Part shown: positions 5,411 through 10,321 of the stretch, in pieces | How positions within the stretch are numbered: position 1 is the stretch's first letter | How the letters are laid out: the number at the start of each line of letters is the position of its first letter | Source: Erythrobacter sp. | Lineage (GTDB): Bacteria; Pseudomonadota; Alphaproteobacteria; Sphingomonadales; Sphingomonadaceae | Reading direction: 5' to 3' | NCBI RefSeq assembly: GCF_023653175.1 | Contig: NZ_JAMNXL010000003.1 | Location: 1-57,457 of the forward strand | DNA length: 57,457 bases | The notes under the pieces: model-generated | Told to the model about the DNA's origin: nothing | Database searches by the model: none | The model's input: only the letters and a program-made list of their open reading frames with translations | Made by a program: the position numbers and the translations under genes

Positions 5411-6604
5411 ATGCAGACCAAGGCCGGTGATCCCGGGGCCTTCGCCCAATTCGATCTGTCGCGTGTCGACAGCCCCGCCTTCGTGGTCGACGCCGCGCGG
5501 CTGCGCGCCAATTGCCGCGTTCTGGCGGGCGTGCGCGATGCCGCCGCCGCAGACGGCGCGGACATCAAGGTCTTCGCCGCATTGAAGGCGTTCTCGATGT
5601 GGTCGGCAGCGCCGATCATCGGCGAATATCTCGACGGGGTCTCGACCTCGGGCCTGTGGGAAGCGCGCCTCGCGTCGGAGTTCTACGACGGCGAGATCGC
5701 GACCTACTCCGCCGCCTTCAAGCCCGAGGAGCTGGAGGAGATCTGCCGGCTGTCCGACCACGTGATCTTCAACTCGCCCTTCCAGCACCAACGGGCGCGC
5801 CTGATCCTCGACAACGCCGCAGCCAACGGCGCGCCGGTCAGCGTCGGCCTCAGGATCAACCCGCAGGTAGCAACCGGCGAGGTCGCCAAGTATGACCCCA
5901 GCGCCCCCGGATCGCGATTGGGCTTCCCGCTCGATCAGCTTACCGAGGAGCACATGGAGGGCGTCGAGGGCATCCACTTCCACAACCTGTGCGAACAGGA
6001 TTTCGAGCCCTTGAAGGCCACGTGGGACCGGGTGTTCGACGTGATCGAGCCCTTCTTCGAGCAGCTCAAATGGATCAACATGGGCGGTGGCCACCACATC
6101 ACCCGCGCCGATTACCAGCGCGAGGAGCTGGTGGAGTTCTTGCGTGACGCAGCCGCCGACACCGGCTGCCAGATCATCCTCGAACCCGGCGAGGCGGTCG
6201 CGCTCGACGCGGGCATTCTGGTCGGCACGCTGCTCGACACCCATTTCAACGAGATGCCGGTGGGGATCACCGACATCTCGGCGACCTGCCACATGCCCGA
6301 CGTGCTCGAAGCGCCCTATCGGCCAGCGATGCTCGGCGAGATCGTCGATGAGGGGCTTATCCCGATCCGTCTCGGCGGCCCCTCATGCCTCGCGGGCGAC
6401 GTGATCGGCGACTACCGCCTGCCGGTCCCCGCCGAGCCCGGCGCGCGTTTCGCCTTCCTCGACCAGGCGCATTATTCGATGGTGAAGACCAACACCTTCA
6501 ACGGGGTCGCGCTGCCGAGCATCTGGATGTGGGACAGCGAAACCGACGCGCTCGACTGCATCAAACGCTTCGACTACGCCGATTTCCGCGACCGGCTGAG
6601 CTGA
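5411..6604 (+). CDS. nspC: Carboxynorspermidine/carboxyspermidine decarboxylase
   Basis: Fold-III PLP decarboxylase with FAALKAFSMWSAAPIIGEYLDGVSTSGLWEARLASEFYDGEIATYSAAFKPEEL, GIHFHNLCEQ, GGGHHITR, LEPGEAVALDAG. Confidence 0.9.
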   Translation: MQTKAGDPGAFAQFDLSRVDSPAFVVDAARLRANCRVLAGVRDAAAADGADIKVFAALKAFSMWSAAPIIGEYLDGVSTSGLWEARLASEFYDGEIATYSAAFKPEELEEICRLSDHVIFNSPFQHQRARLILDNAAANGAPVSVGLRINPQVATGEVAKYDPSAPGSRLGFPLDQLTEEHMEGVEGIHFHNLCEQDFEPLKATWDRVFDVIEPFFEQLKWINMGGGHHITRADYQREELVEFLRDAAADTGCQIILEPGEAVALDAGILVGTLLDTHFNEMPVGITDISATCHMPDVLEAPYRPAMLGEIVDEGLIPIRLGGPSCLAGDVIGDYRLPVPAEPGARFAFLDQAHYSMVKTNTFNGVALPSIWMWDSETDALDCIKRFDYADFRDRLS

Positions 6605-8305: not shown

Positions 8306-8878
8306 GTGATCGAGATTTTCGGCTGGCTGTGGACTTCGGCCATTCTGGTGATGGTGGTAGCGCTCGTCCTGCTCGCGATTGCCGCCTACAACAATCTCGT
8401 CGGCCTCAGGCAGAGCGTGCGGCAGGGGGTGGCCGATATCGATGCCCAGCTGCGCCAGCGGCATGATCTTATCCCCAATCTTGTCGAGACCGTGAAGGGC
8501 TATGCCGGGCACGAGGTGGCGACGCTCGAAGCGGTGATCGCGGCGCGCAATGCCGCCGCCAGCGGCGCACCGTCCTCGGGGGGCGAGCAGCAGCTGAAGA
8601 GCGCGCTCGGCAATCTACTGGCGCTGGGCGAGGCCTATCCCGACCTCAAGGCTTCCGCGAATTTCCAGTCGCTCCAGGGCGAGCTCGCCGATGTCGAGGA
8701 CAAGCTGGCTGCCGCCCGCCGCGCCCTCAACGCCGCGACCGCGCGCTTCAACGCCGCGCGCGAATCCTTCCCGGCGGTGCTGTTTGCCGGAATGTTCGGA
8801 TTCGCCGAGGCGGACTTCCACCGCCTCGACGCGAGCGAGCAGGGGACGGTCGACCAGGTGCCGCGGATCAGCTTCTGA
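8306..8878 (+). CDS. LemA family protein
   Basis: AYNNLVGLRQSVRQGVADIDAQLRQRHDLIPNLVETVKGYAGHE is the LemA signature; RBS aaggagg at 8291-8297 supports GTG 8306 rather than TTG 8300. Confidence 0.9.
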   Translation: MIEIFGWLWTSAILVMVVALVLLAIAAYNNLVGLRQSVRQGVADIDAQLRQRHDLIPNLVETVKGYAGHEVATLEAVIAARNAAASGAPSSGGEQQLKSALGNLLALGEAYPDLKASANFQSLQGELADVEDKLAAARRALNAATARFNAARESFPAVLFAGMFGFAEADFHRLDASEQGTVDQVPRISF

Positions 8879-8989
8879 TTCGGCTCCAGAACGGGGCCAA
8901 ACAGCGGATTTCCGGTCACATTCCGGTCGCGTTCGGGCTGTGGGCCGGATGATGTCTTCAAAAAGTAACATTTCCTCCCGGCGGGGTGC

Positions 8990-9115
8990 ATTTTTCATTT
9001 GCATTTCCCCCCCCAGGCCCTAGATGCGCCCTTCCGCTGCCCCAAGGGGACTTCCAAACCGCAAGGCAGCTTGTCGTTTTATGGTTTTCACAAACCGTTT
9101 TGGGGGTCCCTTGAG
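8990..9115 (+). promoter_or_regulatory. Structured 5' leader of ornithine decarboxylase, likely the alphaproteobacterial speF RNA motif
   Basis: Hairpins CAAG-gcag-CTTG (9062-9073) and GGTTT-tcac-AAACC (9083-9096); long-range CCCCAA (9040-9045)/TTGGGG (9100-9105) and GGGAC (9047-9051)/GTCCC (9106-9110). Position matches the published speF motif, but no covariance search was run. Confidence 0.6.
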
Positions 9116-9146
9116 TTGCACATCTATCCTGACGCACTGGCTGTAG
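9024..9146 (+). CDS. Upstream ORF in the ornithine decarboxylase leader (40 aa), candidate regulatory leader peptide
   Basis: ATG 9024 to TAG 9146: MRPSAAPRGLPNRKAACRFMVFTNRFGGPLSCTSILTHWL; overlaps the probable TTG start of the decarboxylase (9116) in another frame. Confidence 0.35.
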   Translation: MRPSAAPRGLPNRKAACRFMVFTNRFGGPLSCTSILTHWL

Positions 9147-10321
9147 TCCGCGACCTCCGTCCGGACGAACCCGTCATCCTCAATCGCCCGCACGCCGCGC
9201 GGCGCGCCGCCCGTTTCTTCGTCGAGAAGTTTCCGGGCAAGGTGCTCTATGCGGTCAAGGCCAACCCGGCGCCCGATCTGATCGAGGTGCTGTGGAGCGC
9301 CGGTGTCACCCACTATGACGTCGCCTCGATCACCGAGGTGCGGCTGGTGCGCGGCATCCTGCCTGACGCGGTGCTGTGCTTCATGCACCCGGTGAAGACC
9401 CCGGCGGCAATCCGCGAGGCCTATTTCGAGCACGGCGTGCGTACCTTCAGCCTCGACACATACGAGGAGCTGGAGAAGATCGTGGCCGCCTGCACCGATC
9501 CCGCGACCGGCGAGGCGCCGCGCGACCTGCGTCTGTGCGTGCGGCTGCGCGTATCTTCGGAATATTCCGAGCTCAGCCTCGCGTCGAAGTTCGGCTGCGA
9601 CCTCATCGAAGCGCCCCAGCTGCTCCAGCAGGCCCGCCAGCATTGCGACTGGCTGGGCGTGTGCTTCCATGTCGGCAGCCAGGCGATGACGCCCTTCGCT
9701 TTCGTGCAGGCATTGGACCGCACCCGTGCGGCGATTGCCGAGGCGTCGGTCGTGATCGACATGATCGATGTCGGCGGGGGCTTCCCGAGCGCCTATCCGG
9801 GGCTCGAACCGCCGCCGATGGAAGATTACTTCGCGATCATCGCCAAGCACTTCGAAAGCCTGCCGATCGCCTACAACGCCGAGCTGTGGTGCGAACCCGG
9901 CCGCGCGCTGTCGGCCGAGTATTCGTCGATGATCGTGCAGGTGAACAAGCGCCGTGACGAGGAGCTTTACATCAACGACGGTGCCTATGGCGCCCTTTAC
10001 GATGCCGCTCACGTTGCCTGGCGCTTCCCGGTGCGAGCGCTCGAGGACGACCTGATCGAGGAAGACGAGGATTTCGCCTTCTACGGCCCGACCTGCGACG
10101 ATGCCGACTACATGAAGGGCCCGTTCAAGCTGCCCGCCGACATCCAGGCGGGCGACTATATCGAAATCGGGATGCTCGGCGCTTACGGCGCGGCGATGAA
10201 GACCGGTTTCAACGGCTATGGCAATGCCCAGGTCGTGACCGTGCAGGACGAGCCGATGATGAGCCTGTTCAACGGCACCCGCGTGCGCGAGGCGACCGAC
10301 AACGTGGTGAGCCTGCGCTGA
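9116..10321 (+). CDS. Fold-III PLP ornithine/lysine decarboxylase
   Basis: LHIYPDALAVVRDLRPDEPVILNRPHAARRAARFFVEKFPGKVLYAVKANPAPDLIEVLWSAGVTHYDVAS...VDVGGGFPSAYPG-type motifs, WCEPGRALSAEY, YGPTCDDADYMKGPF. Start set at TTG 9116; the supplied ORF begins at 8999. Confidence 0.88.
   Translation: MHIYPDALAVVRDLRPDEPVILNRPHAARRAARFFVEKFPGKVLYAVKANPAPDLIEVLWSAGVTHYDVASITEVRLVRGILPDAVLCFMHPVKTPAAIREAYFEHGVRTFSLDTYEELEKIVAACTDPATGEAPRDLRLCVRLRVSSEYSELSLASKFGCDLIEAPQLLQQARQHCDWLGVCFHVGSQAMTPFAFVQALDRTRAAIAEASVVIDMIDVGGGFPSAYPGLEPPPMEDYFAIIAKHFESLPIAYNAELWCEPGRALSAEYSSMIVQVNKRRDEELYINDGAYGALYDAAHVAWRFPVRALEDDLIEEDEDFAFYGPTCDDADYMKGPFKLPADIQAGDYIEIGMLGAYGAAMKTGFNGYGNAQVVTVQDEPMMSLFNGTRVREATDNVVSLR

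Follow-up and report, generated by a model that had tools for sequence, protein, structure and literature searches.

The decarboxylase locus and its leader

The analyzed stretch of DNA (57,457 nucleotides of contig NZ_JAMNXL010000003.1, Erythrobacter sp.), here called the window, carries a gene whose product, as predicted from its sequence, is a pyridoxal-phosphate decarboxylase, an ornithine decarboxylase (ODC). In a PDB comparison, its best relatives are lysine/ornithine and ornithine decarboxylases, and the ODC frame is conserved from approximately codon 2 on. About 2.5 kb upstream, on the same strand, a carboxynorspermidine decarboxylase-like gene is located (5411–6604). It matches TIGR01047 with 360.7 bits, below the cut-off of 409, and may represent a second polyamine-pathway decarboxylase near the ODC gene. 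The ODC leader comprises a probable promoter, a structured RNA element with a Shine–Dalgarno (SD) sequence, two UUG start codons, and a mini-ORF of 11 codons that overlaps the start of the enzyme gene (Table 1). It corresponds to the odc1 (uORF-25-1) motif published by Brewer et al. (2021, RNA Biol 18:2417, PMC8632094).

The 24-nt 3′ core of the leader, TTTTGGGGGTCCCTTGAGTTGCAC, was found without mismatch in 103 Sphingomonadales contigs. With the decarboxylase protein as query, matches with E up to 1e-60 were obtained in 241 out of 301 genomes of the order, and the upstream DNA was taken for 100 further loci from this search.

Table 1. Features of the ODC leader region; positions refer to the window.
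Feature	Position	Strand	Remarks
Probable promoter	8999..9026	+	TTGCAT (8999–9004), 16 nt, TAGATG (9021–9026); includes ATG 9024
Whole leader element (odc1 motif)	9034..9118	+	Covariance model R1, 81.9 bits, one copy in the genome
Pseudoknot helix, 5′ strand GCUGCC	9036..9041	+	Pairs with 9065–9070
Long stem, 5′ strand GGGACUUCCAA	9047..9057	+	Pairs with the SD strand
Near-invariant loop ACCGCAA between the two helices	9058..9064	+	Alignment and loop counts
Pseudoknot helix, 3′ strand GGCAGC	9065..9070	+	Pairs with 9036–9041
Long stem, 3′ strand UUGGGGGUCCC	9100..9110	+	Contains the Shine–Dalgarno sequence GGGGGU (9102–9107)
Mini-ORF, 11 codons (UUG AGU UGC ACA UCU AUC CUG ACG CAC UGG CUG UAG)	9111..9146	+	Conserved start and stop
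Ornithine decarboxylase (ODC)	9116..10321	+	Start UUG 9116; Pfam PF02784 and PF00278
Selected mini-ORF stop codon	9144..9146	+	164 UAG, 24 UGA, 6 UAA in 194 of 197 unique leaders

Structure of the leader RNA

The covariance model R1, which was built partly from the window sequence, detected one copy per genome and, among 289 alphaproteobacteria, only in the family of the window organism; weak hits in other alphaproteobacterial families (E 0.002–0.1) were taken as noise. On comparative evidence, the two helices of the leader form an H-type pseudoknot. In the pseudoknot helix, 99.0% of the cells are paired and four of the six pairs have changed on both sides, with CUGCC/GGCAG, CAGCC/GGCUG, and CCGCC/GGCGG as covarying forms; the compensated CAGCC/GGCUG helix was seen in five genomes matched by one IUPAC pattern. 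The quality of the pseudoknot helix was reached by none of 500 shuffles, and sliding the partner strand worsened every measure. In 173 out of 173 unique leaders, the 5′ strand of the long stem pairs with the SD strand over 6–15 contiguous positions, mostly 11–14, compared to mostly 3–6 for shuffled loops; the SD is thereby buried. These pairs were counted by a script and not from alignments, because the rows with GGGAC and GGGGAC were out of register. The changes GGGGG/GGAGG and UUCC/UCCC preserve the pairing, and in some relatives the SD sequence reads GGAGGU. The predicted pairing of the leader SD with the anti-SD amounts to −9.6 kcal/mol. Since the pseudoknot-free fold of the single strand is not unusually stable (z −0.51), the support for the RNA structure is comparative.

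Several variations of the element were observed. In the window (9062–9073) and in relatives, the 3′ strand of the pseudoknot is also able to form a hairpin of the type CAAGG-CAG-CCUUG (mean 4.7 bp vs. 3.0 bp with shuffled downstream sequence), which would allow for a competing OFF/ON conformation. In several lineages (L027, L028, L030, L150, L151, L156, L161, and L173), the 5′ pseudoknot strand is separated from the GGGAC strand by an additional small hairpin. One ODC leader (L182 in G327, positions 249–303) is devoid of the pseudoknot half and retains both UUGs and the mini-ORF stop, which indicates that parts of the element can separate.

Probable promoter and the upstream part of the frame

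A strict scan for sigma-70 promoters found nothing, and the promoter was instead judged by a position-anchored comparison of the leaders. Among 211 related leaders, the best −35/−10 pair has a mean score of 7.7 out of 12 (6.0 for shuffles), and the best match ends mostly 8–11 nt before the pseudoknot helix. Given this distance, transcription is predicted to start near 9032–9036, which is 3′ of ATG 9024. An ATG at this position is often present because TATATG is a frequent form of the −10 hexamer in these leaders.

In the original prediction, ATG 9024 was the start of a 40-codon uORF running through the whole structured leader. The ORF from ATG 9024 to TAG 9146 (+) does exist with exactly the translation given there, and it ends 31 nt into the decarboxylase gene (TTG 9116) in another frame. 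Its length is unremarkable, as 67 ORFs of at least 30 amino acids overlap the 7 kb around the locus. As a transcribed unit spanning the leader, it could not be upheld, since ATG 9024 lies inside the probable −10 hexamer. An open in-frame ATG in the −10 zone is present in 30 out of 211 related leaders, any in-frame ATG (e.g., 9081) between the pseudoknot and UUG 9111 in 58 out of 211, and in L025, L027, L030, and L116 upstream stops come within 3–5 codons of UUG 9111. Thus, close relatives with a conserved RNA structure show stops and frame changes in the 5′ part of the frame and not in its 3′ part. The 5′ two thirds appear to be spurious, the 3′ end (UUG 9111 to UAG 9144) is real, and the start is to be sought at UUG 9111 and not at ATG 9024 or 9081, which gives a length of 11 codons and not 40. 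Although the window and a minority of its close relatives have the 40-codon frame open, the full uORF starting at ATG 9024 is hardly credible as the functional unit: this ATG is probably untranscribed, it is kept in frame in few leaders, and the frame is interrupted in the four relatives named.

Start codons and conserved stop of the mini-ORF

UUG 9111 lies 5 nt upstream of the decarboxylase start UUG 9116, out of frame with it, and is the only start codon in the mini-ORF frame that is common to the leaders. In the protein-derived set of 119 same-family genes, with offsets counted from the decarboxylase start, UUG(−5) was found in 118, UUG(0) in 119, and the stop at +28 in 117; the degenerate leader L188, which was not parsed by the pattern, is outside these 119. 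The constancy of UUG(−5) is unexplained by pairing alone, because the facing 5′ strand varies.

The mini-ORF stop is located exactly 28 nt into the decarboxylase gene in 194 out of 197 unique leaders, a count which, like the other leader counts, overstates the independent evidence because related sequences share ancestry. The out-of-frame ORF overlapping the decarboxylase start and ending at 9146, as originally predicted, is real and selected. The stop is built via GTA|G, CTG|A, CTA|G, GTA|A, ATA|G, and TTA|G; among the stop-forming codons, GTA, CTA, and ATA are rare in the gene bodies (2.8% of Val, 1.2% of Leu, and 0.5% of Ile codons, respectively). On a tree of 121 full-length genes, for the building of which the N-terminus was left out, the stop state shows no Fitch change (0 in 121 genes), whereas other common out-of-frame stops mostly show 12–24 changes and a few are intermediate (4–7). 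An out-of-frame stop at codon 184 shows two changes, presumably because its codons themselves are fixed. In the same tree, the third position of the stop-forming codon changed twice, compared to a gene-body mean of 22. Of the aberrant leaders, L023 carries a 15-nt in-frame insertion and still terminates in the mini-ORF frame. In L223, the loss of one spacer base has changed the frame, and a UGA follows after 10 codons from the displaced UUG. The stop is lost in the degenerate leaders L172 and L188; in L172, the mini-ORF frame stays open for 22 codons.

Selection on rare codons was rejected as the reason for the stop conservation, because the CTG|ATT group makes the stop with a common codon. 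An invariant RNA motif was rejected as well, since the only common feature is the identity as a stop (UAG, UGA, or UAA). A programmed frameshift from the mini-ORF into ODC was also discarded; it would require a −1 shift, and there is no conserved slippery heptamer. On comparative grounds, the conservation of the stop shows that translation of the mini-ORF frame occurs at a relevant frequency; it is no demonstration of regulation.

A second out-of-frame stop, in the other frame, is located at +14 (9130–9132 in the window) and is UGA, UAG, or UAA in 73% of the leaders. It was often gained and lost (19 changes) and is probably a by-product of Pro-Asp and His-Ser codons.

Conservation of the encoded peptide

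Altogether, 129 distinct mini-ORF peptides were seen. At the C-terminus, many different residues precede the stop (WL, RL, RP, TG, WS, WV, WG). The first codons (LSC) are conserved, but they overlap with invariant RNA. Length variants comprise 9 codons (L073, L094, and their relatives) and 16 codons (L023). Any change at a third position of the enzyme gene within the overlap alters the peptide, because these sites are second positions of the mini-ORF. They changed 16.6 times per site; the gene-body value is 22.2, and equally low values are reached by 13% of the gene-body windows. Judged from this variation, a conservation of the peptide beyond what the ODC frame imposes is absent.

The interpretation as an arrest peptide like the enterobacterial SpeFL was not supported by these comparisons. 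The core RKAACRF-MVFTNRF, on which it was based, lies 5′ of the conserved ORF in a stretch without a conserved frame, and the conserved ORF itself encodes a freely varying peptide. Local alignment of SpeFL (sequence from the E. coli K-12 record) with the 40-amino acid ORF gave a score of 25 (shuffled mean 17.5; p = 0.044, uncorrected, in one hand-picked comparison), and the resemblance is confined to the stretch without frame conservation. For the mini-ORF peptide LSCTSILTHWL, local alignment against shuffles revealed no likeness to SpeFL (p = 0.38). A conserved peptide was not found in the mini-ORF family either. The combination of a conserved stop at a conserved distance with a free peptide sequence favors an RNA-controlled choice between the starts over a SpeFL-like arrest peptide.

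Proposed mechanism and alternatives

We consider it probable, with some reserve, that the odc1 leader sets how often ribosomes start in the decarboxylase frame by an RNA-controlled choice of two starts, with an abortive ORF of fixed length at the unproductive one. The transcript would begin at the leader element, and the pairing of the pseudoknot loop with the SD strand in the long stem would make ribosome entry dependent on the fold. Once freed, the SD could serve two UUGs in different frames, located 4 nt (UUG 9111) and 9 nt (UUG 9116) downstream, and the RNA fold with its near-invariant ACCGCAA loop would bias the choice. If UUG 9116 is chosen, the enzyme would be made; if UUG 9111 is chosen, a throw-away 11-mer would result, ending at the stop at 9144, with the ribosome occupying the start region of the enzyme gene. 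The selected feature of the mini-ORF would be its end position and not the encoded sequence. Since termination is selected and the sequence is not, the uORF most likely takes ribosomes and quickly releases them at the start region. A regulatory signal may shift the balance, probably a metabolite of the polyamine pathway, as guessed from the gene identity.

The dual starts, the SD, the helices, the selection on the stop, and the lack of peptide conservation come from the present analysis; the use of both starts, the uORF/main ORF ratio, and the effects of the mutations M4–M6 are taken from the literature on a homologue in E. coli. In lacZ fusions of this Sphingomonas homologue, initiation was observed at both UUGs, with the uORF approximately 3-fold above the main ORF (PMC8632094). 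A ribosome translating the overlapping ORF would compete for TTG 9116, in agreement with the original prediction that it could control access to this start. Mutations at conserved positions beside the pseudoknot (M4–M6) abolished main-ORF expression, and the uORF was spared by M4 and M5; the start-codon mutants M1–M3 showed that each frame depends on its own start, and both frames were expressed higher in minimal medium (PMC8632094). These reporter data were obtained in E. coli at low expression (PMC8632094).

Three other explanations of the conserved stop were weighed. If the mini-ORF were an arrest peptide like SpeFL, its translation would stall on ornithine or a polyamine, and a ribosome at the stop 28 nt into ODC would cover the start. 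A parallel exists in the mammalian AdoMetDC uORF, which is stabilized by polyamines. The conserved stop within steric reach of UUG 9116, the putrescine-forming enzyme encoded downstream, and the peptide conservation reported by Brewer et al. (PMC8632094) all fit such a function. However, the C-terminal residues before the stop are highly variable, the wobble sites of the overlap evolve at nearly gene-body rates, the mini-ORF is devoid of SpeFL similarity, and 11 residues hardly reach the exit tunnel, which together make stalling improbable. Termination-coupled reinitiation, in which ribosomes ending at 9144 slide back to UUG 9116 so that the uORF feeds ODC, would take advantage of a stop just 28 nt past the main start; a backward slide of 28 nt would be unusual, though, and the published mutants M1–M3, in which each frame depended on its own start (PMC8632094), argue against it, so that we regard it as very improbable.

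The stop might also be a matter of housekeeping, with mis-initiation at UUG 9111 being unavoidable near one SD, the stop merely ending out-of-frame translation, and the RNA alone being regulatory. This would account for selection on the stop without selection on the peptide, and the frame open for 22 codons in the degenerate leader L172 is in accordance with it. The exact stop position, however, is retained by most family members, including leaders that already have a stop at codon 10 (L073, L094, L097, L104, and L118), and the spare UUG is near-invariant, although one substitution would remove it. We therefore consider housekeeping alone unlikely, if still worth keeping in mind.

The published reading of odc1 allowed for a functional peptide or for an RNA-guided choice of the start; the comparative result separates the two, as the stop and its distance are strongly selected and the peptide is not. 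The matter concerns the control of the first committed step of polyamine synthesis. The mini-ORF stop can be removed by a single-base change, GTA to GTC, which is synonymous for the enzyme.

A divergent odc1-like ODC leader was observed in two genera of another Sphingomonadales family (L292 in G049 and L293 in G090). Both sequences share an identical 37-nt island, CGCCTCTTGCCGAATCGGGCCTTCGCAACGTCGGCAAC, and, by inspection, can form the same topology (UUGCCGA/UCGGCAA, with the loop GGGCCUUC opposite GGAGGUCCC). They contain a double AUG start (AUGA-AUG) within GGAGGUC[CU]CAUGAAUG and a 6-codon overlapping ORF in the other frame, whose UAG stop is present in both sequences despite a change of the overlapped ODC residue (Thr to His). 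A class-wide pattern search found no further relatives of this leader, which is a lead, as just two sequences are known. It is conceivable, at somewhat less than even chances, that odc1 is one of a larger group of start-choice switches that act on putrescine synthesis independently of a peptide. In such switches, a pseudoknot would shift ribosomes between close starts in different frames, and the decoy ORF would function by its fixed length.

Comparison with known systems

No Rfam family matched at the gathering score in the window, and none matched at E up to 5 in the region 8700–9400; odc1 is absent from Rfam 15. The speF RNA of Rfam is another alphaproteobacterial ODC leader. Like the window leader, it precedes a decarboxylase gene in the same class, but the window leader is without an Rfam match. 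With SpeFL, the window shares a small ORF before an ornithine decarboxylase gene. SpeFL, however, comprises 34 amino acids and is encoded 257 nt upstream of speF, which it does not overlap, whereas the window mini-ORF has 11 codons and overlaps the enzyme start out of frame; it shares with SpeFL neither a conserved peptide nor sequence similarity.

Within the collection of papers searched, no later paper mentions the odc1 motif. For odc1, Brewer et al. described a pseudoknot, a buried SD, two UUG starts, and an 11-amino acid uORF, and proposed a control by start choice (PMC8632094). They also reported a high conservation and a constant length of the uORF peptide, as an observation and not as a defining criterion (PMC8632094); a role of the peptide is therefore conceivable. 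In the wider sample analyzed here, a conserved peptide as published was not found beyond the ODC frame, and the mini-ORF varies, with lengths of 9 (L073/L094) and 16 codons (L023) and an altered frame in L223. The architectural features described for odc1 are present in the window. The leader is located directly 5′ of the ODC gene of an alphaproteobacterial host, the right shoulder of the extended stem holds the ribosome binding site, and the 5′-terminal nucleotides form the pseudoknot with the loop near the 5′ end. The two UUGs are separated by 2 nt (UUG 9111–9113, AG, UUG 9116–9118), and the uORF encodes 11 amino acids (LSCTSILTHWL, stop 9144–9146). No feature of the window contradicts the assignment to odc1.
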